Shown: positions 1-32,492 of the stretch, piece by piece
How positions within the stretch are numbered: position 1 is the stretch's first letter
Layout: every line of letters starts with the position of its first letter
NCBI RefSeq assembly: GCF_000003605.2
Contig: NW_003144495.1
Span: 1-32,492 of the forward strand
DNA: 32,492 nucleotides
Origin: Saccoglossus kowalevskii
Taxonomy: Eukaryota; Hemichordata; Enteropneusta; Harrimaniidae
Reading direction: 5' to 3'
Program-made: the position numbers and the translations under genes
The notes under the pieces: model-generated
Databases searched by the model: none
What the model was told of the DNA's origin: nothing
The model's input: the letters and a program-made list of their open reading frames with translations, nothing else

Positions 1-953
1 AGGACTATTCAATTCCTATAGGACTTTAAACTGCCACTCCTATATGACTGGTGTATGATGTCATAAGTCTATAGAACTTTACAATTATTCCAATATGATT
101 TTAAACTGCCTGTCCTGTAGGATTGGTGTGCGAGATAGTAAGTTCTATAGGACTGTACAATTCCAATATGATTTTAAACTGCCAGTCCTATAGGACTAGT
201 GTGTGAGATAGTAAGTCCTATAGGACTATTCAATTCCTATAGGACTTTAAACTGCCAGTCCTATAGGACTGGTGTGTGAAATAGTAAGTCATATAAGACT
301 ATAAATTATTCCTATAAGACTTTAAACTGCCAGTTTTATAGGACGGGTGTGTGAGATCATAAGTCCTATAGGACTATACAATTATTTCTATACGATTTTA
401 AACTGCCAGTCTTATAGGACCGGCGTGTGAGATAGTAAGTCCCATAGGACTATACAATTCCTATAGGACTTTGAACTGCCAGTCCTATATGACTGGTGTA
501 TGAGGTCATAAGTCCTATAGGACTATAAAATTTATTCCTACATGATTTTAAACTGCCAGTCCTATAGGACTGGTGTGTGCAATCGTAAGTCCTATAGGAC
601 TATTCAATTCCAATAGGACTTTAAACTGCCAGTCCTATAGGACTGGTGTGTGAGATAGTAAGTCCTATATGACTATACAATTTCTATAAGACTTTAAACT
701 GCCAGTTTTATAGGACTGGTGTGTGAGATCGTAAGTCCTATAGGACCATTCAATTCCTATAGGACTTTAAACTGCCAGTTCTAAAGGACTGGTGTGTGAG
801 ATCATAAGTCCTATATGACTTTACAATTATTCCTATATGATTTAAACTGCCAGTCCTATATGACTGGTGTGTGAGATAGTAAGTCCTATAGGACTATTCA
901 ATTCCTATATGACTTTAAACTGCCAGTCCTATAGGACTGGTGTGTGAGATCGT
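1..953 (+). repeat. HOR unit 1 (short; left end cut by window)
   Basis: About 13 monomers. It begins inside M1 (GATGTCAT tail ends at 64) and follows the same order as unit 2 (M2, M3, then M6-M12), with M4 and M5 merged into one monomer at 213-285. At 806-880 a fused monomer has the head of the M13 type and the tail of the second-to-last monomer of a full unit. The end monomer (881-953) follows directly. Some 20-30 middle monomers of the reference unit are therefore missing. Single-base losses occur in M2 (AAGTCTATAGAAC near 65) and near 840 (GATTTAAAC). Confidence 0.8.
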
Positions 954-3670
954 AAGTCCTATAGGACTATTCAATTCCTATAGGACTTTAAACTGCCACT
1001 CCTATATGACTGGTGTATGATGTCATAAGTCCTATAGAACTTTACAATTATTCCAATATGATTTTAAACTGCCTGTCCTGTAGGATTGGTGTGCGAGATA
1101 GTAAGTTCTATAGGACTGTACAATTCCAATATGATTTTAAACTGCCAGTCCTATAGGACTAGTGTGTGAGATAGTAAGTCCTATAGGACTATTCAATTCC
1201 TATGAAACTTTAAACTGCCAGTCCTATAGGACTGGTGTGTGAGATCGTAAGTCCTATAAGACTATTCAATTCCTATAGGACTTTAAACTGCCAGTCCTAT
1301 AGGACTGGTGTGTGAAATAGTAAGTCATATAAGACTATAAATTATTCCTATAAGACTTTAAACTGCCAGTTTTATAGGACGGGTGTGTGAGATCATAAGT
1401 CCTATAGGACTATACAATTATTTCTATACGATTTTAAACTGCCAGTCTTATAGGACCGGCGTGTGAGATAGTAAGTCCCATAGGACTATACAATTCCTAT
1501 AGGACTTTGAACTGCCAGTCCTATATGACTGGTGTATGAGGTCATAAGTCCTATAGGACTATAAAATTTATTCCTACATGATTTTAAACTGCCAGTCCTA
1601 TAGGACTGGTGTGTGCAATCGTAAGTCCTATAGGACTATTCAATTCCAATAGGACTTTAAACTGCCAGTCCTATAGGAATGGTGTGTGAGATAGTAAGTC
1701 CTATATGACTATACAATTTCTATAAGACTTTAAACTGCCAGTTTTATAGGACTGGTGTGTGAGATCGTAAGTCCTATAGGACCATTCAATTCCTATAGGA
1801 CTTTAAACTGCCAGTCCTAAAGGACTGGTGTGTGAGATCATAAGTCCTATATGACTTTACAATTATTCCTATATGATTTTAAACTGCCAGTCCTATAGAA
1901 CTGATGTGTGAGATAGTAAGTCCTATAGGACTATTCAATTCCTATATGACTTTAAACTGCCTGTCCTATAAGATTGGTGTGCGAGATCGTAAGTTCTATA
2001 GGACTATACAATTCCTATACGACTTTAAACTGCCTGTCCTATTGGACTGGTGTGTGAGATCAAAAGTCCTATAGAACTATACAATTCCTATAGGATTTTA
2101 AACTACCAGTCTATAGGACTGGTGTGTGAGATCGTAAGTCCTATAATTCCTACAGGACTTTAAACTGCCACTCCTATATGACTGGTGTATGAGGTCATAG
2201 GTCCTATAGGACTATAAAATTTATTCCTACATGATTTTAAACTGCCAGTCCTATAGGACTGGTGTGTGCAATCGTAAGTCCTATAGGACTATTCATTTTC
2301 TATAAGACTTTAAACTGCCAGTTTTATAGGACTGGTGTGTGAGATCGTATGTCCTATAGGACCATTCAATTCCTATAGGACTTTAAACTGCCAGTCCTAA
2401 AGGACTGGTGTGTGAGATCATAAGTCCTATATGACTTTACAATTATTCCTATATGATTTTAAACTGCCAGTCCTATAGGACCGGCGTGTGAGATAGTAAG
2501 TCCCATAGGACTATACAATTCCTATAGGACTTTGAACTGCCAGTCCTATATGACTGGTGTATGAGGTCATAAGTCCTATAGGACTATAAAATTTATTCCT
2601 ACATGATTTTAAACTGCCAGTCCTATAGGACTGGTGTGTGCAATCGTAAGTCCTATAGGACTATTCATTTTCTATAAGACTTTAAACTGCCAGTTTTATA
2701 GGACTGGTGTGTGAGATCGTATGTCCTATAGGACCATTCAATTCCTATAGGACTTTAAACTGCCAGTCCTAAAGGACTGGTGTGTGAGATCATAAGTCCT
2801 ATATGACTTTACAATTATTCCTATAGGATTTTAAACTGCCAGTCTATAGGACTGGTGTGTGAGATCGTAAGTCCTGTAATTCCTATAGGACTTTAAACTG
2901 CCACTCCTGTAGGACTGGTGTGTGAGATCATAAGTCCTATAGGACTATAAAATATATTCCTATATGATTTTAAACTGCCAGTCCTATAGGACTGGTGTGT
3001 GAGATCATAAGTCCTATATGACTTTACAATTATTCCCATATGATTTTAAACTGCCAGTCCTATAGGACTGGTGTGTGAGATAGTAAGTCCTATAGGACTA
3101 TTCAATTCCTATATGACTTTAAACTGCCTGTCCTATAAGATTGGTGTGCGAGATCGTAAGTTCTATAGGACTATACAATTCCAATATGATTTTAAACTGG
3201 CAGTCCTATAGGACTGGTGTGTGAGATAGTAAGTCCTATAGGACTATTCATTTTCTATAAGACTTTAAACTGCCAGTTTTATAGGCCTGGTGTGTGAGAT
3301 CGTAAGTCCTATAGGACCATTCAATTCCTATAGGACTTTAAACTGCCAGTCCTAAAGGACTGGTGTGTGAGATCATAAGTCCTATATGACTTTACAATTA
3401 TTCCTATATGATTTTAAACTGCCAGTCCTATAGGACTGGTGTGTGAGATAGTAAGTCCTATAGGACTATTCAATTCCTATATGACTTTAAACTGCCTGTC
3501 CTATAAGATTGGTGTGCGAGATCGTAAGTTCTATACGACTATACAATTCCTATACGACTTTAAACTGCCTGTCCTATTGGACTGGTGTGTGAGATCAAAA
3601 GTCCTATATAACTATACAATTCCTGTAGGATTTTAAACTGCCAGTCTATAGGACTGGTGTGTGAGATCGT

Positions 3671-4826
3671 ATGTCCTATAATTCCTATAGGACTTTAAAC
3701 TGTCAGTCCTAAAGGACTGGTGTGTGAGATCACAAGTCCTATAGGACTATACAATTCCAATATGATTTTAAACTGCCAGTCCTATAGGACTGGTGTGTTA
3801 GATAGTACGTCCTATAGGAATATTCAATTCCTATATGACTTTGAACTGCCTGTCCTATAAGATTGGTGTGCGAGATCGTAAGTTCTATAGGACTATACAA
3901 TTCCAATATGATTTTAAACTGGCAGTCCTATAGGGCTTGTGTGTGAGATAGTAAGTCCTATAGGAATATTCAATTCCTATATGACTTTAAACTGCCAGTC
4001 CTGTAGGACTGGTGTGTGAGATCGTAAGTCATATAGGACTATTCAATTTCTATATGATTTTAAACTGCCAGTCCTATAGGACTGGTGTGTGAGATAGTAA
4101 GTACTATATGACTATACAATTTCTATAAGACTTTAAACTGCCAGTTCTATAGGACTGGTGTGTGAGATAGTAAGTATATAGGATTATACAATTTCTATAA
4201 GACTTTAAACTGCCAGTCATAAAGGACTGGTGTATGAAATCATAAGTCCTATAGGACTATAAAATTTATTCCTATATGATTTTAAACTGCCAGTCCTATA
4301 GTCCTGGTGCGTGCGATCGTATGTCCTATAGGACTATACAATTGCTATAAGACTTTAAACTGCCAGTCCTAAAGGACTGGTGTGTGAGATCATAAGTCCT
4401 ATATGACTTTACAATTATTCCTATATGACTTTAAACTGCCTGTCCTATAAGATTGGTGTGCGAGATCGTAAGTTCTATAGGACTATAAATTCCTATACGA
4501 CTTTAAACTGCCTGTCCTATTGGACTGGTGTGTGAGATCAAAAGTCCTATAATTCCTATAGGACTTTAAACTGCCACTCCTATTGGACTGGTGTGTGAGA
4601 TCATAAGTCCTATAGGACTATACATTTATTCCTATATGATTTTAAACTGCCAGTCCTATAGGACTGGTGTGTGAGATAGTATGTCCTGTAGGACTATTCA
4701 ATTCCTATGAAACTATAAACTGCCAGTCCTATAGGACTGGTGTGTGAGATCATAAATCCTATAGGACTATTCAATTCCTATAGGACTTTAAACTGCCAGT
4801 CATATAGGACTGGTGTGTGAAATAGT
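3671..4826 (+). repeat. Divergent monomer block inside unit 2
   Basis: Sixteen monomers with many variants not seen in units 3-11. Examples are a GTTAGATAGTACGTCC junction near 3797, AGGGCTTGTGTG near 3932, AAGTACTATATG near 4099, AAGTATATAGG at 4172, TAGTCCTGGTGCGTGCGATC near 4299 and ATTGCTATAAG near 4344. The monomer frame and orientation are unchanged. The end of the block (4681-4826) still resembles M4 and M5. The first part (3671-4038) recurs at 32125-32492, where the window stops, so the rest of that second copy cannot be seen. It may be older, less homogenised satellite. Confidence 0.7.
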
Positions 4827-5486
4827 AAGTCATATAGGACTATACAATTATTCCTATATGATTTTAAACTGCCAGTCCTATAGGACCGGCGTGTGAGATA
4901 GTAAGTCCCATAGGACTATACAATTCCTATAGGACTTTGAACTGCCAGTCCTATATGACTGGTGTATGAGGTCATAAGTCCTATAGGATTATAAAATTTA
5001 TTCCTACATGATTTTAAACTGCCAGTCCTATTGGACTGGTGTGTGAGATCAAAAGTCCTATAGAACTATACAATTCCTATAGGATTTTAAACTGCCAGTC
5101 TATAGGACTGGTGTGTGAGATCGTAAGTCCTATAATTCCTATAGGACTTTAAACTGCCACTCCTATATGACTGGTGTATGAGGTCATAAGTCCTATAGGA
5201 CTATAAAATTTATTCCTACATGATTTTAAACTGCCAGTCCTGTAGGACTGGTGTGTGCAATCGTAAGTCCTATAGGACTATTCATTTTCTATAAGACTTT
5301 AAACTGCCAGTTTTATAGGACTGGTGTGTGAGATCGTATGTCCTATAGGACCATTCAATTCCTATAGGACTTTAAACTGCCAGTCCTAAAGGACTGGTGT
5401 GTGAGATCATAAGTCCTATATGACTTTACAATTATTCCTATATGATTTTAAACTGCCAGTCCTATAGGACTGGTGTGTGAGATAGT

Positions 5487-5704: not shown

Positions 5705-6367
5705 AAGTTCTATAGGACTATACAATTCCAATATGATTTTAAACTGGCAGTCCTATAGGACTGGTGTGTGAGATAGTAAGTCCTATAGGACTATTCATTT
5801 TCTATAAGACTTTAAACTGCCAGTTTTATAGGACTGGTGTGTGAGATCGTAAGTCCTATATGACCATTCAATTCCTATAGGACTTTAAACTGCCAGTCCT
5901 AAATGACTGGTGTGTGAGATCATAAGTCCTATATGACTTTACAATTATTCCTATATGATTTTAAACTGCCAGTCCTATATGACTGGTGTGTGAGATAGTA
6001 AGTCCTATAGGACTATTCAATTCCTATATGACTTTAAACTGCCAGTCCTATAGGACTGGTGTGTGAGATCGTAAGTCCTATAGGACTATTCAATTCCTAT
6101 AGGACTTTAAACTGCCACTCCTATATGACTGGTGTATGATGTCATAAGTCCTATAGAACTTTACAATTATTCCAATATGATTTTAAACTGCCTGTCCTGT
6201 AGGATTGGTGTGCGAGATAGTAAGTTCTATAGGACTGTACAATTCCAATACGATTTTAAACTGCCAGTCCTATAGGACTAGTGTGTGAGATAGTAAGTCC
6301 TATAGGACTATTCAATTCCTATGAAACTTTAAACTGCCAGTCCTATAGGACTGGTGTGTGAGATCGT

Positions 6368-6440
6368 AAGTCCTATAGGACTATTCAATTCCTATAGGAC
6401 TTTAAACTGCCAGTCCTATAGGACTGGTGTGTGAAATAGT
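6368..6440 (+). repeat. Reference monomer with three intact palindromic boxes
   Basis: This 73-bp copy shows the basic architecture without decay. Box 1 (6369-6382, AGTCCTATAGGACT), box 2 (6390-6399, TCCTATAGGA) and box 3 (6410-6427, CCAGTCCTATAGGACTGG) are perfect inverted repeats sharing the CCTATAGG core. Core-to-core spacings are about 19, 25 and 29 bp (the last across the monomer boundary), so the monomer itself looks like three diverged copies of a shorter ancestral repeat of roughly 24 bp. TTTAAA lies between boxes 2 and 3. The tail is GAAATAGT, a type that recurs once or twice in units that keep this part of the order. Confidence 0.85.
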
Positions 6441-7182
6441 AAGTCATATAAGACTATAAATTATTCCTATAAGACTTTAAACTGCCAGTTTTATAGGACG
6501 GGTGTGTGAGATCATAAGTCCTATAGGACTATACAATTATTTCTATACGATTTTAAACTGCCAGTCTTATAGGACCGGCGTGTGAGATAGTAAGTCCCAT
6601 AGGACTATACAATTCCTATAGGACTTTGAACTGCCAGTCCTATATGACTGGTGTATGAGGTCATAAGTCCTATAGGACTATAAAATTTATTCCTACATGA
6701 TTTTAAACTGCCAGTCCTATAGGACTGGTGTGTGCAATCGTAAGTCCTATAGGACTATTCAATTCCAATAGGACTTTAAACTGCCAGTCCTATAGGACTG
6801 GTGTGTGAGATAGTAAGTCCTATATTACTATACAATTTCTATAAGACTTTAAACTGCCAGTTTTATAGGACTGGTGTGTGAGATCGTAAGTCCTATAGGA
6901 CCATTCAATTCCTATAGGACTTTGAACTGCCAGTCCTAAAGGACTGGTGTGTGAGATCATAAGTCCTATATGACTTTACAATTATTCCTATATGATTTTA
7001 ATTTGCCAGTCCTATAGAACTGATGTGTGAGATAGTAAGTCCTATAGGACTATTCAATTCCTATATGACTTTAAACTGCCTGTCCTATAAGATTGGTGTG
7101 CGAGATCGTAAGTTCTATAGGACTATACAATTCCTATACGACTTTAAACTGCCTGTCCTATTGGACTGGTGTGTGAGATCAA

Positions 7183-8124
7183 AAGTCCTATAGAACTATA
7201 CAATTCCTATAGGATTTTAAACTGCCAGCCTATAGGACTGGTGTGTGAGATCGTAAGTCCTATAATTCCTACAGGACTTTAAACTGCCACTCCTATATGA
7301 CTGGTGTATGAGGTCATAGGTCCTATAGGACTATAAAATTTATTCCTACATGATTTTAAACTGCCAGTCCTATAGGACTGGTGTGTGCAATCGTAAGTCC
7401 TATAGGACTATTCATTTTCTATAAGACTTTAAACTGCCAGTTTTATAGGACTGGTGTGTGAGATCGTATGTCCTATAGGACCATTCAATTCCTATAGGAC
7501 TTTAAACTGCCAGTCCTAAAGGACTGGTGTGTGAGATCATAAGTCCTATATGACTTTACAATTATTCCTATATGATTTTAAACTGCCAGTCCTATAGGAC
7601 CGGCGTGTGAGATAGTAAGTCCCATAGGACTATACAATTCCTATAGGACTTTGAACTGCCAGTCCTATATGACTGGTGTATGAGGTCATAAGTCCTATAG
7701 GATTATAAAATTTATTCCTACATGATTTTAAACTGCCAGTCCTATTGGACTGGTGTGTGAGATCAAAAGTCCTATAGAACTATACAATTCCTATAGGATT
7801 TTAAACTGCCAGTCTATAGGACTGGTGTGTGAGATCGTAAGTCCTATAATTCCTATAGGACTTTAAACTGCCACTCCTATATGACTGGTGTATGAGGTCA
7901 TAAGTCCTATAGGACTATAAAATTTATTCCTACATGATTTTAAACTGCCAGTCCTGTAGGACTGGTGTGTGCAATCGTAAGTCCTATAGGACTATTCATT
8001 TTCTATAAGACTTTAAACTGCCAGTTTTATAGGACTGGTGTGTGAGATCGTATGTCCTATAGGACCATTCAATTCCTATAGGACTTTAAACTGCCAGTCC
8101 TAAAGGACTGGTGTGTGAGATCAT
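7183..8124 (+). repeat. Internal 584-bp (eight-monomer) duplication within the HOR
   Basis: The five-monomer run of 72, 63, 77, 73 and 73 bp at 7183-7540 is repeated at 7767-8124, with three monomers (76, 73 and 77 bp) between, giving a 584-bp period. The two runs differ at a few positions, for example CCTACAGGACT versus CCTATAGGACT in the 63-mer and AGGTCC versus AAGTCC at the start of the 77-mer. The same arrangement is kept in units 5, 6, 8 and 10, and is amplified once more in unit 9. Confidence 0.8.
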
Positions 8125-8707
8125 AAGTCCTATATGACTTTACAATTATTCCTATATGATTTTAAACTGCCAGTCCTATAGGACTGGTGTGTGAGATAGT
8201 AAGTCCTATAGGACTATTCAATTCCTATATGACTTTAAACAGCCTGTCCTATAAGATTGGTGTGCGAGATCGTAAGTTCTATAGGACTATACAATTCCTA
8301 TAGGATTTTAAAGTGCCAGTCTATAGGACTGGTGTGTGAGATCGTAAGTCCTGTAATTCCTATAGGACTTTAAACTGCCACTCCTGTAGGACTGGTGTGT
8401 GAGATCATAAGTCCTATAGGACTATAAAATATATTCCTATATGATTTTAAACTGCCAGTCCTATAGGACTGGTGTGTGAGATCATAAGTCCTATATGACT
8501 TTACAATTATTCCCATATGATTTTAAACTGCCAGTCCTATAGGACTGGTGTGTGAGATAGTAAGTCCTATAGGACTATTCAATTCCTATATGACTTTAAA
8601 CTGCCTGTCCTATAAGATTGGTGTGCGAGATCGTAAGTTCTATAGGACTATACAATTCCAATATGATTTTAAACTGGCAGTCCTATAGGACTGGTGTGTG
8701 AGATAGT

Positions 8708-8997
8708 AAGTCCTATAGGACTATTCAATTCCTATATGACTTTAAACAGCCTGTCCTATAAGATTGGTGTGCGAGATCGTAAGTTCTATAGGACTATACA
8801 ATTCCTATAGGATTTTAAACTGCCAGTCTATAGGACTGGTGTGTGAGATAGTAAGTCCTATAGGACTATTCAATTCCTATATGACTTTAAACAGCCTGTC
8901 CTATAAGATTGGTGTGCGAGATCGTAAGTTCTATAGGACTATACAATTCCTATAGGATTTTAAACTGCCAGTCTATAGGACTGGTGTGTGAGATAGT
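8708..8997 (+). repeat. 145-bp dimer repeat, two exact-length copies (unit 3)
   Basis: 8708-8852 and 8853-8997 are consecutive 145-bp pairs (73 + 72 bp) that look identical by eye. A further pair of the same kind sits earlier in this unit at 8201-8345, separated by the 63-, 77- and 76-mers. The AAACAGCC variant (near 8745 and 8890) marks each 73-bp member. Confidence 0.85.
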
Positions 8998-9438
8998 AAG
9001 TCCTATAGGACTATTCAATTCCTATATGACTTTAAACTGCCTGTCCTATAAGATTGGTGTGCGAGATCGTAAGTTCTATAGGACTATACAATTCCAATAT
9101 GATTTTAAACTGGCAGTCCTATAGGACTGGTGTGTGAGATAGTAAGTCCTATAGGACTATTCATTTTCTATAAGACTTTAAACTGCCAGTTTTATAGGAC
9201 TGGTGTGTGAGATCGTAAGTCCTATATGACCATTCAATTCCTATAGGACTTTAAACTGCCAGTCCTAAAGGACTGGTGTGTGAGATCATAAGTCCTATAT
9301 GACTTTACAATTATTCCTATATGATTTTAAACTGCCAGTCCTATATGACTGGTGTGTGAGATAGTAAGTCCTATAGGACTATTCAATTCCTATATGACTT
9401 TAAACTGCCAGTCCTATAGGACTGGTGTGTGAGATCGT

Positions 9439-11714
9439 AAGTCCTATAGGACTATTCAATTCCTATAGGACTTTAAACTGCCACTCCTATATGACTGGTG
9501 TATGATGTCATAAGTCCTATAGAACTTTACAATTATTCCAATATGATTTTAAACTGCCTGTCCTGTAGGATTGGTGTGCGAGATAGTAAGTTCTATAGGA
9601 CTGTACAATTCCAATATGATTTTAAACTGCCAGTCCTATAGGACTAGTGTGTGAGATAGTAAGTCCTATAGGACTATACAATTTCTATAAGACTTTAAAC
9701 TGCCAGTTTTATAGGACGGGTGTGTGAGATCATAAGTCCTATAGGACTATACAATTATTTCTATACGATTTTAAACTGCCAGTCTTATAGGACCGGCGTG
9801 TGAGATAGTAAGTCCCATAGGACTATACAATTCCTATAGGACTTTGAACTGCCAGTCCTATATGACTGGTGTATGAGGTCATAAGTCCTATAGGACTATA
9901 AAATTTATTCCTACATGATTTTAAACTGCCAGTCCTATAGGACTGGTGTGTGCAATCGTAAGTCCTATAGGACTATTCAATTCCAATAGGACTTTAAACT
10001 GCCAGTCCTATAGGACTGGTGTGTGAGATAGTAAGTCCTATATTACTATACAATTTCTATAAGACTTTAAACTGCCAGTTTTATAGGACTGGTGTGTGAG
10101 ATCGTAAGTCCTATAGGACCATTCAATTCCTATAGGACTTTAAACTGCCAGTCCTAAAGGACTGGTGTGTGAGATCATAAGTCCTATATGACTTTACAAT
10201 TATTCCTATATGATTTTAAACTGCCAGTCCTATAGAACTGATGTGTGAGATAGTAAGTCCTATAGGACTATTCAATTCCTATATGACTTTAAACTGCCTG
10301 TCCTATAAGATTGGTGTGCGAGATCGTAAGTTCTATAGGACTATACAATTCCTATACGACTTTAAACTGCCTGTCCTATTGGACTGGTGTGTGAGATCAA
10401 AAGTCCTATAGAACTATACAATTCCTATAGGATTTTAAACTGCCAGTCTATAGGACTGGTGTGTGAGATCGTAAGTCCTATAATTCCTACAGGACTTTAA
10501 ACTGCCACTCCTATATGACTGGTGTATGAGGTCATAGGTTCTATAGGACTATAAAATTTATTCCTACAAGATTTTAAACTGCCAGTCCTATAGGACTGGT
10601 GTGTGCAATCGTAAGTCCTATAGGACTATTCATTTTCTATAAGACTTTAAACTGCCAGTTTTATAGGACTGGTGTGTGAGATCGTATGTCCTATAGGACC
10701 ATTCAATTCCTATAGGACTTTAAACTGCCAGTCCTAAAGGACTGGTGTGTGAGATCATAAGTCCTATATGACTTTACGAATTATTCCTATATGATTTTAA
10801 ACTGCCAGTCCTATAGGACCGGCGTGTGAGATAGTAAGTCCCATAGGACTATACAATTCCTATAGGACTTTGAACTGCCAGTCCTATATGACTGGTGTAT
10901 GAGGTCATAAGTCCTATAGGATTATAAAATTTATTCCTACATGATTTTAAACTGCCAGTCCTATTGGACTGGTGTGTGAGATCAAAAGTCCTATAGAACT
11001 ATACAATTCCTATAGGATTTTAAACTGCCAGTCTATAGGACTGGTGTGTGAGATCGTAAGTCCTATAATTCCTATAGGACTTTAAACTGCCACTCCTGTA
11101 GGACTGGTGTGTGAGATCATAAGTCCTATAGGACTATAAAATATATTCCTATATGATTTTAAACTGCCAGTCCTATAGGACTGGTGTGTGAGATCATAAG
11201 TCCTATATGACTTTACAATTATTCCCATATGATTTTAAACTGCCAGTCCTATAGGACTGGTGTGTGAGATAGTAAGTCCTATAGGACTATTCAATTCCTA
11301 TATGACTTTAAACTGCCTGTCCTATAAGATTGGTGTGCGAGATCGTAAGTTCTATAGGACTATACAATTCCAATATGATTTTAAACTGGCAGTCCTATAG
11401 GACTGGTGTGTGAGATAGTAAGTCCTATAGGACTATTCATTTTCTATAAGACTTTAAACTGCCAGTTTTATAGGACTGGTGTGTGAGATCGTAAGTCCTA
11501 TATGACCATTCAATTCCTATAGGACTTTAAACTGCCAGTCCTAAATGACTGGTGTGTGAGATCATAAGTCCTATATGACTTTACAATTATTCCTATATGA
11601 TTTTAAACTGCCAGTCCTATATGACTGGTGTGTGAGATAGTAAGTCCTATAGGACTATTCAATTCCTATATGACTTTAAACTGCCAGTCCTATAGGACTG
11701 GTGTGTGAGATCGT
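9439..11714 (+). repeat. HOR unit 4 (2276 bp, 31 monomers)
   Basis: Reference order with two losses. M4-M6 are replaced by one 73-bp hybrid at 9661-9733 (head with ATACAATTTCTATAAG, tail with GGACGGGTG). Further on, the 63-mer at 11058-11120 has the head of the second 63-mer type and the tail of the third (CACTCCTGTAGG), so the 507 bp (or 652 bp, if the dimer was doubled) that lie between those 63-mers elsewhere are gone, with the 145-bp dimer. A single G insertion (TTTACGAATT) is at about 10787. Confidence 0.8.
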
Positions 11715-14641
11715 AAGTCCTATAGGACTATTCAATTCCTATAGGACTTTAAACTGCCACTCCTATATGACTGGTGTATGATGTCATAAGTCCTATAGAA
11801 CTTTACAATTATTCCAATATGATTTTAAACTGCCTGTCCTGTAGGATTGGTGTGCGAGATAGTAAGTTCTATAGGACTGTACAATTCCAATATGATTTTA
11901 AACTGCCAGTCCTATAGGACTAGTGTGTGAGATAGTAAGTCCTATAGGACTATACAATTTCTATAAGACTTTAAACTGCCGGTTTTATAGGACGGGTGTG
12001 TGAGATCATAAGTCCTATAGGACTATACAATTATTTCTATACGATTTTAAACTGCCAGTCTTATAGGACCGGCGTGTGAGATAGTAAGTCCCATAGGACT
12101 ATACAATTCCTATAGGACTTTGAACTGCCAGTCCTATATGACTGGTGTATGAGGTCATAAGTCCTATAGGACTATAAAATTTATTCCTACATGATTTTAA
12201 ACTGCCAGTCCTATAGGACTGGTGTGTGCAATCGTAAGTCCTATAGGACTATTCAATTCCAATAGGACTTTAAACTGCCAGTCCTATAGGACTGGTGTGT
12301 GAGATAGTAAGTCCTATATTACTATACAATTTCTATAAGACTTTAAACTGCCAGTTTTATAGGACTGGTGTGTGAGATCGTAAGTCCTATAGGACCATTC
12401 AATTCCTATAGGACTTTAAACTGCCAGTCCTAAAGGACTGGTGTGTGAGATCATAAGTCCTATATGACTTTACAATTATTCCTATATGATTTTAAACTGC
12501 CAGTCCTATAGAACTGATGTGTGAGATAGTAAGTCCTATAGGACTATTCAATTCCTATATGACTTTAAACTGCCTGTCCTATAGGATTGGTGTGCGAGAT
12601 CGTAAGTTCTATAGGACTATACAATTCCTATACGACTTTAAACTGCCTGTCCTATTGGACTGGTGTGTGAGATCAAAAGTCCTATAGAACTATACAATTC
12701 CTATAGGATTTTAAACTGCCAGTCTATAGGACTGGTGTGTAAGATCGTAAGTCCTATAATTCCTACAGGACTTTAAACTGCCACTCCTATATGACTGGTG
12801 TATGAGGTCATAGGTTCTATAGGACTATAAAATTTATTCCTACATGATTTTAAACTGCCAGTCCTATAGGACTGGTGTGTGCAATCGTAAGTCCTATAGG
12901 ACTATTCATTTTCTATAAGACTTTAAACTGCCAGTTTTATAGGACTGGTGTGTGAGATCGTATGTCCTATAGGACCATTCAATTCCTATAGGACTTTAAA
13001 CTGCCAGTCCTAAAGGACTGGTGTGTGAGATCATAAGTCCTATATGACTTTACAATTATTCCTATATGATTTTAAACTGCCAGTCCTATAGGACCGGCGT
13101 GTGAGATAGTAAGTCCCATAGGACTATACAATTCCTATAGGACTTTGAACTGCCAGTCCTATATGACTGGTGTATGAGGTCATAAGTCCTATAGGATTAT
13201 AAAATTTATTCCTACATGATTTTAAACTGCCAGTCCTATTGGACTGGTGTGTGAGATCAAAAGTCCTATAGAACTATACAATTCCTATAGGATTTTAAAC
13301 TGCCAGTCTATAGGACTGGTGTGTGAGATCGTAAGTCCTATAATTCCTATAGGACTTTAAACTGCCACTCCTATATGACTGGTGTGTGAGGTCATAAGTC
13401 CTATAGGACTATAAAATTTATTCCTACATGATTTTAAACTGCCAGTCCTGTAGGACTGGTGTGTGCAATCGTAAGTCCTATAGGACTATTCATTTTCTAT
13501 AAGACTTTAAACTGCCAGTTTTATAGGACTGGTGTGTGAGATCGTATGTCCTATAGGACCATTCAATTCCTATAGGACTTTAAACTGCCAGTCCTAAAGG
13601 ACTGGTGTGTGAGATCATAAGTCCTATATGACTTTACAATTATTCCTATATGATTTTAAACTGCCAGTCCTATAGGACTGGTGTGTGAGATAGTAAGTCC
13701 TATAGGACTATTCAATTCCTATATGACTTTAAACAGCCTGTCCTATAAGATTGGTGTGCGAGATCGTAAGTTCTATAGGACTATACAATTCCTATAGGAT
13801 TTTAAACTGCCAGTCTATAGGACTGGTGTGTGAGATAGTAAGTCCTATAGGACTATTCAATTCCTATATGACTTTAAACAGCCTGTCCTATAAGATTGGT
13901 GTGCGAGATCGTAAGTTCTATAGGACTATACAATTCCTATAGGATTTTAAACTGCCAGTCTATAGGACTGGTGTGTGAGATCGTAAGTCCTGTAATTCCT
14001 ATAGGACTTTAAACTGCTACTCCTGTAGGACTGGTGTGTGAGATCATAAGTCCTATAGGACTATAAAATATATTCCTATATGATTTTAAACTGCCAGTCC
14101 TATAGGACTGGTGTGTGAGATCATAAGTCCTATATGACTTTACAATTATTCCCATATGATTTTAAACTGCCAGTCCTATAGGACTGGTGTGTGAGATAGT
14201 AAGTCCTATAGGACTATTCAATTCCTATATGACTTTAAACTGCCTGTCCTATAAGATTGGTATGCGAGATCGTAAGTTCTATAGGACTATACAATTCCAA
14301 TATGATTTTAAACTGGCAGTCCTATAGGACTGGTGTGTGAGATAGTAAGTCCTATAGGACTATTCATTTTCTATAAGACTTTAAACTGCCAGTTTTATAG
14401 GACTGGTGTGTGAGATCGTAAGTCCTATATGACCATTCAATTCCTATAGGACTTTAAACTGCCAGTCCTAAAGGACTGGTGTGTGAGATCATAAGTCCTA
14501 TATGACTTTACAATTATTCCTATATGATTTTAAACTGCCAGTCCTATATGACTGGTGTGTGAGATAGTAAGTCATATAGGACTATTCAATTCCTATATGA
14601 CTTTAAACTGCCAGTCCTATAGGACTGGTGTGTGAGATCGT
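11715..14641 (+). repeat. HOR unit 5 (2927 bp, 40 monomers)
   Basis: Shares the M4/M6 hybrid (11937-12009) with unit 4 and is collinear with it from M1 through the monomer ending at 13260, so the two are close relatives. Unlike unit 4 it keeps the second five-monomer run and two 145-bp dimers (13695-13984) before the third 63-mer (13985-14047). It ends with the standard series 14347-14641. Confidence 0.8.
13695..13984 (+). repeat. 145-bp dimer repeat, two copies (unit 5)
   Basis: Two consecutive 73 + 72 bp pairs carrying the AAACAGCC marker, followed at 13985 by the 63-mer AAGTCCTGTAATTCC. Confidence 0.8.
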
Positions 14642-22171: not shown

Positions 22172-24953
22172 AAGTCCTATAGGACTATTCAATTCCTATA
22201 GGACTTTAAACTGCCACTCCTATATGACTGGTGTATGATGTCATAAGTCCTATAGAACTTTACAATTATTCCAATATGATTTTAAACTGCCTGTCCTGTA
22301 GGATTGGTGTGCGAGATCGTAAGTTCTCTAGGACTGTACAATTCCAATATGATTTTAAACTGCCAGTCCTATAGGACTAGTGTGTGAGATAGTAAGTTCT
22401 ATAGGACTATTCAATTCCTATGAAACTTTAAACTGCCAGTCCTATAGGACTGGTGTGTGAGATCGTAAGTCCTATAGGACTATTCAATTCCTATGAAACT
22501 TTAAACTGCCAGTCCTATAGGACTGGTGTGTGAAATAGTAAGTCATGTAAGACTATAAATTATTCCTATAGGATTTTAAACTGCCAGTCCTATAGGACTG
22601 GTGTGTGAGATAGTAAGTCCTATAGGACTATACAATTTCTATAAGACTTTAAACTGCCTGTTTTATAGGACGGGTGTGTGAGATCATAAGTCCTATAGGA
22701 CTATACAATTATTTCTATACGATTTTAAACTGCCAGTCTTATAGGACCGGCGTGTGAGATAGTAAGTCCCATAGGACTATACAATTCCTATAGGACTTTG
22801 AACTGCCAGTCCTATATGACTGGTGTATGAGGTCATAAGTCCTATAGGACTATAAAATTTATTCCTACATGATTTTAAACTGCCAGTCCTATAGGACTGG
22901 TGTGTGAGATAGTAAGTCCTATATGACTATACAATTTCTATAAGACTTTAAACTGCCAGTTTTATAGGACTGGTGTGTGAGATCGTAAGCCCTATAGGAC
23001 CATTCAATTCCTATAGGACTTTAAACTGCCAGTCCTAAAGGACTGGTGTGTGAGATCATAAGTCCTATATGACTTTACAATTATTCCTATATGATTTTAA
23101 ACTGCCAGTCCTATAGAACTGATGTGTGAGATAGTAAGTCCTATAGGACTATTCAATTCCTATATGACTTTAAACTGCCTGTCCTATAAGATTGGTGTGC
23201 GAGATCGTAAGTTCTATAGGACTATACAATTCCTATACGACTTTAAACTGCCTGTCCTATTGGACTGGTGTGTGAGATCAAAAGTCCTATAGAACTATAC
23301 AATTCATATAGGATTTTAAACTGCCAGTCTATAGGACTGGTGTGTGAGATCGTAAGTCCTATAATTCCTACAGGACTTTAAACTGCCACTCCTATATGAC
23401 TGGTGTATGAGGTCATAGGTCCTATAGGACTATAAAATTTATTCCTACATGATTTTAAACTGCCAGTCCTATAGGACTGGTGTGTGCAATCGTAAGTCCT
23501 ATAGGACTATTCATTTTCTATAAGACTTTAAACTGCCAGTTTTATAGGACTGGTGTGTGAGATCGTATGTCCTATAGGACCATTCAATTCCTATAGGACT
23601 TTAACTGCCAGTCCTAAAGGACTGGTGTGTGAGATCATAAGTCCTATATGACTTTACAATTATCTATATGATTTTAAACTGCCAGTCCTATAGGACCGGC
23701 GTGTGAGATAGTAAGTCCCATAGGACTATACAATTCCTATAGGACTTTGAACTGCCAGTCCTATATGACTGGTGTATGAGGTCATAAGTCCTATAGGATT
23801 ATAAAATTTATTCCTACATGATTTTAAACTGCCAGTCCTATTGGACTGGTGTGTGAGATCAAAAGTCCTATAGAACTATACAATTCCTATAGGATTTTAA
23901 ACTGCCAGTCTATAGGACTGGTGTGTGAGATCGTAAGTCCTATAATTCCTATAGGACTTTAAACTGCGACTCCTATATGACTGGTGTATGAGGTCATAAG
24001 TCCTATAGGACTATAAAATTTATTCCTACATGATTTTAAACTGCCAGTCCTGTAGGACTGGTGTGTGCAATCGTAAGTCCTATAGGACTATTCATTTTCT
24101 ATAAGACTTTAAACTGCCAGTTTTATAGGACTGGTGTGTGAGATCGTATGTCCTATAGGACCATTCAATTCCTATAGGACTTTAAACTGCCAGTCCTAAA
24201 GGACTGGTGTGTGAGATCATAAGTCCTATATGACTTTACAATTATTCCTATATGATTTTAAACTGCCAGTCCTATAGGACCGGCGTGTGAGATAGTAAGT
24301 CCCATAGGACTATACAATTCCTATAGGACTTTGAACTGCCAGTCCTATATGACTGGTGTATGAGGTCATAAGTCCTATAGGATTATGAAATTTATTCCTA
24401 CATGATTTTAAACTGCCAGTCCTATTGGACTGGTGTGTGAGATCAAAAGTCCTATAGAACTATACAATTCCTATTGGATTTTAAACTGCCAGTCTATAGG
24501 ACTGGTGTGTGAGATCGTAAGTCCTATAATTCCTATAGGACTTTAAACTGCCACTCCTATATGACTGGTGTATGAGGTCATAAGTCCTATAGGACTATAA
24601 AATTTATTCCTACATGATTTTAAACTGCCAGTCCTGTAGGACTGGTGTGTGCAATCGTAAGTCCTATAGGACTATTCATTTTCTATAAGACTTTAAACTG
24701 CCAGTTTTATAGGACTGGTGTGTGAGATCGTAAGTCCTATATGACCATTCAATTCCTATAGGACTTTAAACTGCCAGTCCTAAAGGACTGGTGTGTGAGA
24801 TCATAAGTCCTATATGACTTTACAATTATTCCTATATGATTTTAAACTGCCAGTCCTATATGACTGGTGTGTGAGATAGTAAGTCATATAGGACTATTCA
24901 ATTCCTATATGACTTTAAACTGCCAGTCCTATAGGACTGGTGTGTGAGATCGT
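22172..24953 (+). repeat. HOR unit 9 (2782 bp, 38 monomers)
   Basis: Begins like unit 8, with two M4-type monomers (GAAACTTT) in a row at 22394-22539, and also lacks M10 (M9 with GATAGT tail at 22837-22913). From 23639 the eight-monomer 584-bp block is tandemly repeated (23639-24220, 24221-24804). The dimer and the third 63-mer section are absent. It ends with the terminal monomers 24659-24953. Private changes include GTTCTCTAGG near 22323, TTTAACTGCC near 23600 (1 bp lost) and ATTATCTATATG near 23660 (2 bp lost). Confidence 0.8.
23639..24804 (+). repeat. Tandem 584-bp eight-monomer block, two copies
   Basis: Copy 1 is 23639-24220 (582 bp because of a 2-bp loss in its first monomer) and copy 2 is 24221-24804. 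Each runs 76, 73, 77, 72, 63, 77, 73 and 73 bp and starts with the M21 type (ACCGGCGTG). In copy 2 the last monomer is the terminal type (CCTATATGACCATTC), which marks the exchange point with the end of the unit. Copy 2 also has private changes GATTATGAAATTT (near 24381) and CCTATTGGATTTT (near 24471). Confidence 0.8.
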
Positions 24954-25445
24954 AAGTCCTATAGGACTATTCAATTCCTATAGGACTTTAAACTGCCACT
25001 CCTATATGACTGGTGTATGATGTCATAAGTCCTATAGAACTTTACAATTATTCCAATATGATTTTAAACTGCCTGTCCTGTAGGATTGGTGTGCGAGATA
25101 GTAAGTTCTATAGGACTGTACAATTCCAATATGATTTTAAACTGCCAGTCCTATAGGACTAGTGTGTGAGATAGTAAGTCCTATAGGACTATACAATTTC
25201 TATAAGACTTTAAACTGCCAGTTTTATAGGACGGGTGTGTGAGATCATAAGTCCTATAGGACTATACAATTATTTCTATACGATTTTAAACTGCCAGTCT
25301 TATAGGACTGGCGTGTGAGATAGTAAGTCCCATAGGACTATACAATTCCTATAGGACTTTGAACTGCCAGTCCTATATGACTGGTGTATGAGGTCATAAG
25401 TCCTATAGGACTATAAAATTTATTCCTACATGATTTTAAACTGCC

Positions 25446-25480
25446 ATTGTATAGTCCTAAGTTCTATAGGACTATACAAT
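25446..25480 (+). repeat. Second copy of the fold-back junction
   Basis: Same 14-bp inverted arms and 7-base loop as at 15134-15168, in the same place within unit 10. Because the two are at the offset shared by the whole duplicated block, they descend from one event followed by duplication. Confidence 0.85.
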
Positions 25481-26549
25481 TCCTATACGACTTTAAACTG
25501 CCTGTCCTATTGGACTGGTGTGTGAGATCAAAAGTCCTATAGAACTATACAATTCCTATAGGATTGTAAACTGCCAGTCTATAGGACTGGTGTGTGAGAT
25601 CGTAAGTCCTATAATTCCTACAGGACTTTAAACTGCCACTCCTATATGACTGGTGTATGAGGTCATAGGTCCTATAGGACTATAAAATTTATTCCTACAT
25701 GATTTTAAACTGCCAGTCCTATAGGACTGGTGTGTGCAATCGTAAGTCCTATAGGACTATTCATTTTCTATAAGACTTTAAACTGCCAGTTTTATAGGAC
25801 TGGTGTGTGAGATCGTATGTCCTATAGGACCATTCAATTCATATAGGACTTTAAACTGCCAGTCCTAAAGGACTGGTGTGTGAGATCATAAGTCCTATAT
25901 GACTTTACAATTATTCCTATATGATTTTAAACTGCCAGTCCTATAGGACCGGCGTGTGAGATAGTAAGTCCCATAGGACTATACAATTCCTATAGGACTT
26001 TGAACTGCCAGTCCTATATGACTGGTGTATGAGGTCATAAGTCCTATAGGATTATAAAATTTATTCCTACATGATTTTAAACTGCCAGTCCTATTGGACT
26101 GGTGTGTGAGATCAAAAGTCCTATAGAACTATACAATTCCTATAGGATTTTAAACTGCCAGTCTATAGGACTGGTGTGTGAGATCGTAAGTCCTATAATT
26201 CCTATAGGACTTTAAACTGCCACTCCTATATGACTGGTGTATGAGGTCATAAGTCCTATAGGACTATAAAATTTATTCCTACATAATTTTAAACTGCCAG
26301 TCCTGTAGGACTGGTGTGTGCAATCGTAAGTCCTATAGGACTATTCATTTTCTATAAGACTTTAAACTGCCAGTTTTATAGGACTGGTGTGTGAGATCGT
26401 ATGTCCTATAGGACCATTCAATTCCTATAGGACTTTAAACTGCCAGTCCTAAAGGACTGGTGTGTGAGATCATAAGTCCTATATGACTTTACAATTATTT
26501 CTATATGATTTTAAACTGCCAGTCCTATAGGACTGGTGTGTGAGATAGT

Positions 26550-26839
26550 AAGTCCTATAGGACTATTCAATTCCTATATGACTTTAAACAGCCTGTCCTA
26601 TAAGATTGGTGTGCGAGATCGTAAGTTCTATAGGACTATACAATTCCTATAGGATTTTAAACTGCCAGTCTATAGGACTGGTGTGTGAGATAGTAAGTCC
26701 TATAGGACTATTCAATTCCTATATGACTTTAAACAGCCTGTCCTATAAGATTGGTGTGCGAGATCGTAAGTTCTATAGGACTATACAATTCCTATAGGAT
26801 TTTAACGTGCCAGTCTATAGGACTGGTGTGTGAGATCGT
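26550..26839 (+). repeat. 145-bp dimer repeat, two copies (unit 10)
   Basis: Two 73 + 72 bp pairs with the AAACAGCC marker. The second 72-mer carries the private TTTTAACGTGCC change (near 26799). Confidence 0.8.
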
Positions 26840-27496
26840 AAGTCCTGTAATTCCTATAGGACTTTAAACTGCCACTCCTGTAGGACTGGTGTGTGAGATC
26901 ATAAGTCCTATAGGACTATAAAATATATTCCTATATGATTTTAAACTGCCAGTCCTATAGGACTGGTGTGTGAGATCATAAGTCCTATATGACTTTACAA
27001 TTATTCCCATATGATTTTAAACTGCCAGTCCTATAGGACTGGTGTGTGAGATAGTAAGTCCTATAGGACTATTCAATTCCTATATGACTTTAAACTGCCT
27101 GTCCTATAAGATTGGTGTGCGAGATCGTAAGTTCTATAGGACTATACAATTCCAATATGATTTTAAACTGGCAGTCCTATAGGACTGGTGTGTGAGATAG
27201 TAAGTCCTATAGGACTATTCATTTTCTATAAGACTTTAAACTGCCAGTTTTATAGGACTGGTGTGTGAGATCGTAAGTCCTATATGACCATTCAATTCCT
27301 ATAGGACTTTAAACTGCCAGTCCTAAAGGACTGGTGTGTGAGATCATAAGTCCTATATGACTTTACAATTATTCCTATATGATTTTAAACTGCCAGTCCT
27401 ATATGACTGGTGTGTGAGATAGTAAGTCCTATAGGACTATTCAATTCCTATATGACTTTAAACTGCCAGTCCTATAGGACTGGTGTGTGAGATCGT

Positions 27497-29257
27497 AAGT
27501 CCTATAGGACTATTCAATTCCTATAGGACTTTAAACTGCCACTCCTATATGACTGGTGTATGATGTCATAAGTCCTATAGAACTTTACAATTATTCCAAT
27601 ATGATTTTAAACTGCCTGTCCTGTAGGATTGGTGTGCGAGATAGTAAGTTCTATAGGACTGTACAATTCCAATATGATTTTAAACTGCCAGTCCTATAGG
27701 ACTAGTGTGTGAGATAGTAAGTCCTATAGGACTATTCAATTCCTATGAAACTTTAAACTGCCAGTCCTATAGGACTGGTGTGTGAGATCGTAAGTCCTAT
27801 AGGACTATTCAATTCCTATAGGACTTTAAACTGCCAGTCCTATAGGACTGGTGTGTGAAATAGTAAGTCATATAAGACTATAAATTATTCCTATAAGACT
27901 TTAAACTGCCAGTTTTATAGGACGGGTGTGTGAGATCATAAGTCCTATAGGACTATACAATTATTTCTATACGATTTTAAACTGCCAGTCTTATAGGACC
28001 GGCGTGTGAGATAGTAAGTCCCATAGGACTATACAATTCCTATAGGACTTTGAACTGCCAGTCCTATATGACTGGTGTATGAGGTCATAAGTCCTATAGG
28101 ACTATAAAATTTATTCCTACATGATTTTAAACTGCCAGTCCTATAGGACTGGTGTGTGCAATCGTAAGTCCTATAGGACTATTCAATTCCAATAGGACTT
28201 TAAACTGCCAGTCCTATAGGACTGGTGTGTGAGATAGTAAGTCCTATATGACTATACAATTTCTATAAGACTTTAAACTGCCAGTTTTATAGGACTGGTG
28301 TGTGAGATCGTAAGTCCTATAGGACCATTCAATTCCTATAGGACTTTAAACTGCCAGTCCTAAAGGACTGGTGTGTGAGATCATAAGTCCTATATGACTT
28401 TACAATTATTCCTATATGATTTTAAACTGCCAGTCCTATAGAACTGATGTGTGAGATAGTAAGTCCTATAGGACTATTCAATTCCTATATGACTTTAAAC
28501 TGCCTGTCCTATAAGATTGGTGTGCGAGATCGTAAGTTCTATAGGACTATACAATTCCTATACGACTTTAAACTGCCAGTCTATAGGACTGGTGTGTGAG
28601 ATAGTAAGTCCTATAGGACTATTCAATTTCTATATGACTTTAAACAGCCTGTCCTATAAGATGGTGTGCGAGATCGTAAGTTCTATAGGACTATACAATT
28701 CCTATAGGATTTTAAAGTGCCAGTCTATAGGACTGGTGTGTGCGATCGTAAGTCCTGTAATTTCTATAGGACTTTAAACTGCCACTCCTGTAGGACTGGT
28801 GTGTGAGATCATAAGTCCTATAGGACTATAAAATATATTCCTATATGATTTTAAACTGCCAGTCCTATAGGACTGGTGTGTGAGATCATAAGTCCTATAT
28901 GACTTTACAATTATTCCCATATGATTTTAAACTGCCAGTCCTATAGGACTGGTGTGTGAGATAGTAAGTCCTATAGGACTATTCAATTCCTATATGACTT
29001 TAAACTGCCTGTCCTATAAGATTGGTGTGCGAGATCGTAAGTTCTATAGGACTATACAATTCCAATATGATTTTAAACTGGCAGTCCTATAGGACTGGTG
29101 TGTGAGATAGTAAGTCCTATAGGACTATTCATTTTCTATAAGACTTTAAACTGCCAGTTTTATAGGACTGGTGTGTGAGATAGTAAGTCCTATAGGACTA
29201 TTCATTTTCTATAAGACTTTAAACTGCCAGTTTTATAGGACTGGTGTGTGAGATCGT
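27497..29257 (+). repeat. HOR unit 11, shortest complete unit (1761 bp, 24 monomers)
   Basis: M1-M14 follow the reference without the M4/M6 fusion (27497-28533). A 72-bp hybrid at 28534-28605 has the M15 head (CCTATACGAC) and a dimer-type 72-mer tail, deleting everything from M16 to the dimer region. One shortened pair follows (28606-28749, 144 bp, with AAGATGGTG lacking one T), then the third 63-mer and terminal types. The ATTCATTTTC monomer is doubled at the end (29112-29257), as in unit 8. Confidence 0.8.
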
Positions 29258-32200
29258 AAGTCCTATAGGACTATTCAATTCCTATAGGACTTTAAACTGC
29301 CACTCCTATATGACTGGTGTATGATGTCATAAGTCCTATAGAACTTTACAATTATTCCAATATGATTTTAAACTGCCTGTCCTGTAGGATTGGTGTGCGA
29401 GATCGTAAGTTCTATAGGACTGTACAATTCCAATATGATTTTAAACTGCCAGTCCTATAGGACTAGTGTGTGAGATAGTAAGTCCTATAGGACTATTCAA
29501 TTCCTATGAAACTTTAAACTGCCAGTCCTATAGGACTGGTGTGTGAGATCGTAAGTCCTATAGGACTATTCAATTCCTATAGGACTTTAAACTGCCAGTC
29601 CTATAGGACTGGTGTGTGAAATAGTAAGTCATATAAGACTATAAATTATTCCTATAGGATTTTAAACTGCCAGTTCTATATTACTGGTGTGTGAGATAGT
29701 AAGTCCTATAGGACTATACAATTTCTATAAGACTTTAAACTGCCAGTTTTATAGGACGGGTGTATGAGATCATAAGTCCTATAGGACTATACAATTATTT
29801 CTATACGATTTTAAACTGCCAGTCTTATAGGACCGGCGTGTGAGATAGTAAGTCCCATAGGACTATACAATTCCTATAGGACTTTGAACTGCCAGTCCTA
29901 TATGACTGGTGTATGAGGTCATAAGTCCTATAGGACTATAAAATTTATTCCTACATGATTTTAAACTGCCAGTCCTATAGGACTGGTGTGTGCAATCGTA
30001 AGTCCTATAGGACTATTCAATTCCAATAGGACTTTAAACTGCCAGTCCTATAGGACTGGTGTGTGAGATAGTAAGTCCTATATTACTATACAATTTCTAT
30101 AAGACTTTAAACTGCCAGTTTTATAGGACTGGTGTGTGAGATCGTAAGTCCTATAGGACCATTCAATTCCTATAGGACTTTAAACTGCCAGTCCTAAAGG
30201 ACTGGTGTGTGAGATCATAAGTCCTATATGACTTTACAATTATTCCTATATGATTTTAAACTGCCAGTCCTATAGAACTGATGTGTGAGATAGTAAGTCC
30301 TATAGGACTATTCAATTCCTATATGACTTTAAACTGCCTGTCCAATAAGATTGGTGTGCGAGATCGTAAGTTCTATAGGACTATACAATTCCTATACGAC
30401 TTTAAACTGCCTGTCCTATTGGACTGGTGTGTGAGATCAAAAGTCCTATAGAACTATACAATTCCTATAGGATTTTAAACTGCCAGTCTATAGGACTGGT
30501 GTGTGAGATCGTAAGTCCTATAATTCCTACAGGACTTTAAACTGCCACTCCTATATGACTGGTGTATGAGGTCATAGGTCCTATAGGACTATAAAATTTA
30601 TTCCTACATGATTTTAAACTGCCAGTCCTATAGGACTGGTGTGTGCAATCGTAAGTCCTATAGGACTATTCATTTTCTATAAGACTTTAAACTGCCAGTT
30701 TTATAGGACTGGTGTGTGAGATCGTATGTCCTATAGGACCATTCAATTCCTATAGGACTTTAAACTGCCAGTCCTAAAGGACTGGTGTGTGAGATCATAA
30801 GTCCTATATGACTTTACAATTATTCCTATATGATTTTAAACTGCCAGTCCTATAGGACCGGCGTGTGAGATAGTAAGTCCCATAGGACTATACAATTCCT
30901 ATAGGACTTTGAACTGCCAGTCCTATATGACTGGTGTATGAGGTCATAAGTCCTATAGGACTATAAAATTTATTCCTACATGATTTTAAACTGCCAGTCC
31001 TATAGGACTGGTGTGTGCAATCGTAAGTCCTATAGGACTATTCATTTTCTATAAGACTTTAAACTGCCAGTTTTATAGGACTGGTGTGTGAGATCGTATG
31101 TCCTATAGGACCATTCAATTCCTATAGGACTTTAAACTGCCAGTCCTAAAGGACTGGTGTGTGAGATCATAAGTCCTATATGACTTTACAATTATTCCTA
31201 TATGATTTTAAACTGCCAGTCCTATAGGACTGGTGTGTGAGATCATAAGTCCTATATGACTTTACAATTATTCCTATATGATTTTAAACTGCCAGTCCTA
31301 TAGGACTGGTGTGTGAGATCGTAAGTCCTGTAATTCCTATAGGACTTTAAACTGCCACTCCTGTAGGACTGGTGTGTGAGATCATAAGTCCTATAGGACT
31401 ATAAAATATATTCCTATATGATTTTAAACTGCCAGTCCTATAGGACTGGTGTGTGAGATCATAAGTCCTATATGACTTTACAATTATTCCCATATGATTT
31501 TAAACTGCCAGTCCTATAGGACTGGTGTGTGAGATAGTAAGTCCTATAGGACTATTCAATTCCTATATGACTTTAAACTGCCTGTCCTATAAGATTGGTG
31601 TGCGAGATCGTAAGTTCTATAGGACTATACAATTCCAATATGATTTTAAACTGGCAGTCCTATAGGACTGGTGTGTGAGATAGTAAGTCCTATAGGACTA
31701 TTCATTTTCTATAAGACTTTAAACTGCCAGTTTTATAGGACTGGTGTGTGAGATCGTAAGTCCTATAGGACCATTCAATTCCTATAGGACTTTAAACTGC
31801 CAGTCCTAAAGGACTGGTGTGTGAGATCATAAGTCCTATATGACTTTACAATTATTCCTATATGATTTTAAACTGCCAGTCCTATAGGACTGGTGTGTGA
31901 GATAGTAAGTCATATAGGACTATTCAATTCCTATATGACTTTAAACTGCCTGTCCTATAAGATTGGTGTGCGAGATCGTAAGTTCTATACGACTATACAA
32001 TTCCTATACGACTTTAAACTGCCTGTCCTATTGGACTGGTGTGTGAGATCAAAAGTCCTATATAACTATACAATTCCTGTAGGATTTTAAACTGCCAGTC
32101 TATAGGACTGGTGTGTGAGATCGTATGTCCCATAATTCCTATAGGACTTTAAACTGTCAGTCCTAAAGGACTGGTGTGTGAGATCACAAGTCCTATAGGA

Positions 32201-32492
32201 CTATACAATTCCAATATGATTTTAAACTGCCAGTCCTATAGGACTGGTGTGTTAGATAGTACGTCCTATAGGAATATTCAATTCCTATATGACTTTGAAC
32301 TGCCTGTCCTATAAGATTGGTGTGCGAGATCGTAAGTTCTATAGGACTATACAATTCCAATATGATTTTAAACTGGCAGTCCTATAGGGCTTGTGTGTGA
32401 GATAGTAAGTCCTATAGGAATATTCAATTCCTATATGACTTTAAACTGCCAGTCCTGTAGGACTGGTGTGTGAGATCGTAAGTCATATAGGA
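29258..32492 (+). repeat. HOR unit 12, relative of unit 2 (right end cut by window)
   Basis: About 45 monomers. It is collinear with 954-4038 of unit 2 except for one extra 73-bp monomer (29701-29773, the GGACGGGTG hybrid) and a net extra 77 bp around 31171-31322, where two 76-mers replace one 75-mer. From 31323 to the end it matches 2869-4038 almost base for base, including CTATATAACTATAC (near 32058) and AGGGCTTGTGTG (near 32386). The window ends in the divergent block. Confidence 0.8.
32125..32492 (+). repeat. Start of a second divergent monomer block
   Basis: Matches 3671-4038 at an offset of 28,454 bp, with the same private variants (GTTAGATAGTACGTCC near 32251, AGGAATATTC near 32276 and 32417). 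One difference is ATGTCCCATAATTCC in place of ATGTCCTATAATTCC at the start. The block continues past the window. Confidence 0.75.

Follow-up and report, generated by a model that had tools for sequence, protein, structure and literature searches.

What kind of repeat fills this locus, how many levels of order does it hold, and what process could have produced them? A first-pass annotation of the window (the whole stretch of DNA that was analysed, 32,492 bases) described five nested levels of tandem structure. Its view of the locus as a long, irregular higher-order repeat (HOR) satellite is correct, and its exact figures for the 73-, 584-, 3,366- and 10,312-bp features were reproduced. Five nested levels is an overstatement; what stands is the monomer and one variable HOR made of mosaics of shared modules. 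In our reading, the window is probably one piece of a satellite array of the eukaryotic type, built on a "cascading" HOR of variable make-up; it is likely noncoding heterochromatin that is renewed by out-of-register exchange or break-induced replication (BIR).

All 32,492 bases belong to one satellite, and both window ends lie in the interior of the array.

1..32492, plus strand: continuous satellite array with monomers head to tail (TRF, anchor tiling and orientation scan)

Run on the whole window (1-32492), TRF returned a period of 73 with 442.1 copies and 80% matches. The TTTAAACTGCC box served as the cutting anchor as well as being the conserved box described below. Its 444 anchors divide the window without gaps into 443 complete monomers (132 distinct), so no monomer was lost in the cutting, and the two approaches together confirm the reported monomer of about 73 bp. 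Most monomers are 73 bp (258), 76 bp (72), 77 bp (56), 62 bp (29) or 72 bp (13) long; the rarer lengths are 75 bp (nine) and 63, 57 and 74 bp (two each). The spacing of 57-77 bp is uninterrupted across the window, and no reverse-orientation anchor with at most one mismatch, and hence no inverted monomer, was found in it. G+C content is 36-38% for each 1-kb step up to 32,000. Only four open reading frames of at least 70 codons are present (71, 71, 72 and 86 codons), none of gene length in 32 kb; no tRNA was found in the window, and no Rfam family matched positions 1-12000, the stretch searched. With 443 monomers in a single orientation and a longest reading frame of 86 codons, the locus is satellite DNA in the usual sense of a long, noncoding, head-to-tail array. 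A further level, a 145-bp dimer, is weak. Among the 442 adjacent monomer pairs, the summed length is 146 bp in 130, 149 bp in 125, 150 bp in 68 and 145 bp in only 19, and the C-T dimer measures 145 bp in 8 of 26 cases.

The order of the monomers is far from chance. Clustering placed them in 38 groups, and the conditional entropy of the next monomer is 1.00 bit, compared to a mean of 3.37 and a minimum of 3.25 in 1,000 shuffles. Variants of type J are specific to their neighbours, with one variant in 9 of 10 I-J-K runs and another in 17 of 19 R-J-K runs. Decomposition of all monomers, one of the checks that the first-pass annotation had proposed, yielded an ordered backbone of 42 monomer positions with variable units. 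The backbone order was picked by eye from the same data on which the array was then parsed; it spans 3,075 bp and contains 35 distinct monomers, separated by a median distance of 12 edits. Compared to their backbone positions, 317 of the 443 monomers are identical and 404 differ by at most two edits, and the whole parse requires 335 edits in 32,415 bp and 43 jumps. Monomers are thus diverged within a unit and near-identical between units, as expected of an HOR satellite. Furthermore, 35 distinct monomers at 42 positions means that types are repeated inside the unit, which is how the available text of PMC11276891 defines a cascading HOR.

When the array is split at the A-B pair, ten units result, with 13, 70, 46, 31, 40, 61, 42, 38, 35 and 24 monomers (962 to 5,119 bp), and an eleventh of 43 monomers is cut by the window end. 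Two of the units, placed by monomer order, are as follows.

6106..9471, plus strand: 46-monomer HOR unit, 3,366 bp
11748..14674, plus strand: 40-monomer HOR unit, 2,927 bp

The 46-monomer unit, previously reported as the HOR, is exact at 6106-9471, but it is one of ten units of 13-70 monomers and does not represent a general HOR length. A run of 40 consecutive monomers (11970-14896) tracks the 42-mer backbone without a jump, as a canonical copy would, but the monomer count is different in each of the ten units. HOR copies are mosaics that have gained or lost entire monomers and modules relative to one another. One such module is the FGOPQRJK octamer, which occurs nine times, is exactly 584 bp long every time, and lies inside the HOR instead of forming a level of its own. 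It is found in tandem once, again by monomer order.

23673..24840, plus strand: sole tandem pair of the 584-bp FGOPQRJK octamer

The array bears the hallmark of an HOR, but its unit is unusually unstable.

The anatomy of a single monomer is best followed from one example.

6106..6181, plus strand: example monomer of type A, 76 bp, beginning at the conserved TTTAAACTGCC box

In the consensus, the TTTAAACTGCC box is followed by core 1 (AGTCCTATAGGACT), a linker (GGTGTGTGAGATCGTA), core 2 (AGTCCTATAGGACT), a short linker and a decayed core 3, giving three palindromic CCTATAGG-type cores per 73-bp monomer. The window contains 471 perfect palindromes of at least 10 bp, which span 19.3% of its bases; 20 first-order Markov simulations gave 49 on average and never more than 61. 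Palindromic sub-blocks of about 24 bp had been proposed. The palindromes are there, but their chief centres fall at monomer phases 48, 18 and 67, and the resulting core spacings of 30, 19 and 24 bp rule out even 24-bp sub-blocks. On the minus strand, self-comparison gave at least 2,000 matches, the six longest of those listed being 64-66% identical, which we put down to the palindromic cores.

Selection for hairpin pairing was considered for the cores and rejected, as a second complementary pair type was absent at all 27 symmetric core positions examined in the 35 backbone types. The cores decay as would copies of any symmetric site, with no visible sign that hairpins are being preserved. Among 11-bp stretches, the TTTAAACTGCC box is conserved best, with a mean identity of 0.990 over the 35 backbone types; 155 of 20,000 column permutations reached this conservation, which does no more than suggest a candidate protein site. 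It should also be noted that the 31 of 443 monomers that are 62-63 bp long (30 of type P, and monomer c at 4502-4564) share a 10-bp deletion between cores 2 and 3, and in most of them core 1 is one base shorter as well.

This combination of variable HOR and dyad-rich cores could mark the deposition of centromeric histone, making the locus an active centromeric satellite. Such a reading is narrower than ours and does not exclude it; we regard it as possible, though less likely than not. The commonest adjacent-pair length, 146 bp (130 of 442 pairs), is close to that of the nucleosome core and counts in its favour, as does the share of bases in perfect palindromes. Centromeres are also described as HOR arrays with BIR-type growth in which short dyad symmetries are enriched (available text of PMC8997354). 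CENP-B binding is not indicated, as the 17-bp CENP-B box pattern had 0 and 0 matches on the two strands of the window. This counts against the centromeric reading, though many centromeres have no CENP-B box, and a further point against it is that HOR satellites occur outside active centromeres too.

Longer-range repetition was measured by an ungapped diagonal scan of the window against itself, because plus-strand megablast (25 rows) missed known long diagonals. The scan found 241 near-identical ungapped segments, each 300 bp or longer, spread over many offsets (the best 45 of the 241 were listed). Two duplications had been reported as further levels, at 10.3 kb and about 28.4 kb, and both are present.

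14345..17201, plus strand: copy 1 of the duplication at an offset of 10,312 bp (7 mismatches in 2,857 bp, 99.75% identity)
24657..27513, plus strand: copy 2 of the same duplication (diagonal scan)
1348..4038, plus strand: copy 1 of the duplication at about 28.4 kb (two ungapped pieces, offsets 28,377 and 28,454)
29725..32492, plus strand: copy 2 of the same duplication, running to the window end

In the second duplication, 1348-2844 matches 29725-31221 at an offset of 28,377 (99.60%) and 2844-4038 matches 31298-32492 at an offset of 28,454 (99.75%). Most of the 77-bp change of offset is explained by one additional K monomer of 76 bp, located at 31207. A 28.4-kb repeat level was rejected in favour of a duplication in two pieces. 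Other offsets among the segments listed are 12,855, 7,679, 2,543 and 5,494. Since 10,312 bp and about 28.4 kb are two offsets in a continuum of 241 segments, we read them as duplications and not as periods of the array.

Similarity is high throughout. Shared segments of HOR copies are about 99.5% identical, and 94.8% of the window has a near-identical ungapped partner of at least 300 bp. For segments of at least 500 bp (n = 110, selected for near-identity), the median divergence is 0.53% and shows no dependence on distance (Spearman 0.007, p-value 0.94). One block stands out by its poor fit to the backbone.

3694..4862, plus strand: divergent block of rare monomers

Within it, nothing else in the window is near-identical to 4039-4842 over 300 or more ungapped bp; this stretch may be an older relic or derive from another array. 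A second stretch with no such partner, 18889-19500, shows several short jumps in series and contains a chimeric monomer (j). These two stretches are the longest that lack a partner.

A mosaic order such as this might also come from an assembly that mis-joined or collapsed reads. The window is wholly repetitive with array at both ends, and the duplication at about 28.4 kb reaches the very window end, as an artefact of this kind could produce. We nevertheless consider an artefact very unlikely. Monomer lengths stay in phase throughout, and when singleton monomers are compared to the closest recurrent monomer, 122 substitutions (61 of them transitions) and 28 indel columns are seen, with a single deletion accounting for ten of these columns; this is unlike the error pattern of raw reads. 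Furthermore, the longest exact repeat in the window is 847 bp, which would be short if long reads were used.

We then return to the satellite reading and to the points at which its mosaics are joined. The array has 32 junction types. Where the flanks fit well (23 types), the mean smaller edit distance between joined monomers is 6.09 compared to 9.12 under the null (5 of 20,000 draws were as low), a figure that omits the nine of 32 types whose flanking monomers fit worse than four edits. With all 32 types the values are 6.78 and 9.11 edits (11 of 20,000 draws). Both comparisons use the backbone order drawn by eye from the same data, and shared ancestry of recent duplicates lowers junction distances too. 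Several junctions link dissimilar monomers; for example, K20 (14 and 14 edits) and K12 (14 and 15 edits) are both joined to P33. With these caveats of backbone choice and shared ancestry, junctions favour similar monomers. Because monomer lengths remain within 57-77 bp at every junction, we infer that joining was directed by homology.

Chimeric monomers were also identified.

4502..4564, plus strand: chimeric monomer c, 63 bp (50-bp prefix common to O, 23-bp suffix common to P)
17145..17220, plus strand: chimeric monomer h, 76 bp (57-bp prefix common to C, 37-bp suffix common to E)
17666..17738, plus strand: chimeric monomer i, 73 bp (37-bp prefix common to M, 41-bp suffix common to N)

Each of these three is completely covered by the prefix of one recurrent type and the suffix of another. 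For chimera j, two parents cover only 67 of 76 bp.

One junction has a different structure. Monomer g lies where G is joined to N and H, I, J, K and M are absent.

15123..15179, plus strand: monomer g, 57 bp, copy 1, at the G-to-N junction
25435..25491, plus strand: monomer g, copy 2, inside the 10,312-bp duplication

Monomer g shares 11 bp on the left and 34 bp on the right with the N type, and in between 12 nt stand in place of 28 bp of N. Together with the two bases that follow, these 12 nt match exactly, in inverted orientation, a 14-nt sequence further along g, giving a hairpin with a 14-bp perfect stem and a 7-nt loop. Four stretches of the window were folded as DNA. Three ordinary dimers gave z-scores of -2.8 to -5.2, showing that palindrome-rich folding is general in the array, and monomer g was extreme (z -7.05, 0 of 200 shuffles). 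An inverted segment of this kind is the expected signature of replication template switching. As both copies of g lie within the 10,312-bp duplication, the switch predates the duplication, and the two copies count as one event.

The most likely mechanism is out-of-register homology-directed exchange or BIR. Unequal crossing-over alone would account for all of the features listed here except monomer g. The setting would be noncoding heterochromatin, whether centromeric, pericentromeric or on a degenerate chromosome. There, a broken or stalled end may re-invade a similar monomer in a different register, so that a block of monomers would be duplicated or lost with the monomer phase preserved. Occasionally, a fork may switch template at a palindrome and leave an inverted templated segment such as that in monomer g. 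If the array has any host function, we speculate that it could act through chromatin or through a protein bound to the cores or to the TTTAAACTGCC box. A stronger version would make the three palindromic cores of each monomer the engine of HOR scrambling, by stalling forks, so that the array would evolve mainly by BIR with template switching. We think this version unlikely; if the cores do drive the scrambling, the array would be a natural record for testing the BIR model against unequal crossing-over.

Palindromes also connect the array, by description, to the PSR chromosome of Nasonia vitripennis and raise the idea that it belongs to a B, sex or other degenerate chromosome. About 70% of PSR-unique sequence is reported to be complex satellites carrying a highly conserved palindromic heptamer (PMC10462710), and recombination at the junctions of PSR repeats has been linked to palindromes (PMC5139131). 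The likeness thus lies in a complex satellite with a conserved palindromic motif and in junction recombination at palindromes, a comparison of descriptions and not of sequence. The accessible PSR descriptions (PMC10462710, PMC5139131) do not mention a large HOR, and unrelated satellites carry palindromes as well (PMC5139131). We consider an origin on such a chromosome highly unlikely.

The first-pass annotation did not recognise the family, and this holds only within the collections searched, which cover prokaryotes, phages, plasmids and viruses. Positions 1901-2500 (600 of 32,492 bases) had no blastn match in phages, plasmids or E. coli genomes, and exact patterns, which diverged relatives escape, had 0 matches in IMG/VR and GTDB contigs. 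The papers listed for monomer words are, by title, on other subjects. A prokaryotic or viral repeat array is extremely improbable given the 0 matches in these collections (which may omit the source genome and near records) and the lack of a gene-length reading frame in 32 kb, and to our knowledge HOR arrays of the present kind are eukaryotic. From the kind of sequence, the source is probably a eukaryote.

The locus thus looks like an ordinary heterochromatin-type satellite with unusually clear recombination scars. Whether HORs form by unequal exchange or by BIR is debated (available text of PMC8997354). With its short monomers, its 32 junction types, its three exact chimeras and a deletion junction that bears an inverted templated segment, this array is a compact case for comparing the two models. 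Given a known host species, the family would also serve as a probe for host heterochromatin or centromere.

Satellites with parts of this organisation have been described elsewhere. TCsat18 of Tribolium castaneum has monomers of about 73 bp and a 63-bp variant, with HORs composed of length variants (PMC10218199). The present array resembles it in both monomer lengths, as far as the two descriptions can be compared, and we do not claim relatedness; the HORs described for TCsat18 are dimeric (PMC10218199). Short and long dyad symmetries are reported in a second paper on a Tribolium satellite, in the part available. A close counterpart in organisation is orangutan alpha satellite, whose cascading HORs include a 58mer on the Y chromosome and a 59mer on chromosome 13, with a divergence between copies of 0.25% and 0.1%, respectively (available text of PMC12428378 and PMC11276891). 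Variants of the 58mer range from a 28mer to a 90mer by gain or loss of monomers or rows (PMC12428378, PMC11276891). Like these HORs, ours has dozens of ordered monomers, types repeated in the unit, low divergence between copies, and variants made by gain or loss. The first-pass annotation had called the number of monomers per HOR unusual. That claim is not supported given the published 58mer and 59mer, and with variants of 28-90 monomers on record, the size and the variability of the present HOR are each already known. The differences lie elsewhere. The monomers here are 57-77 bp long with palindromic cores and are by length not alpha satellite, whereas the orangutan arrays are described as built of alpha monomers of about 171 bp with many canonical copies; in the present array, no two of the ten A-B units are equal in monomer count.
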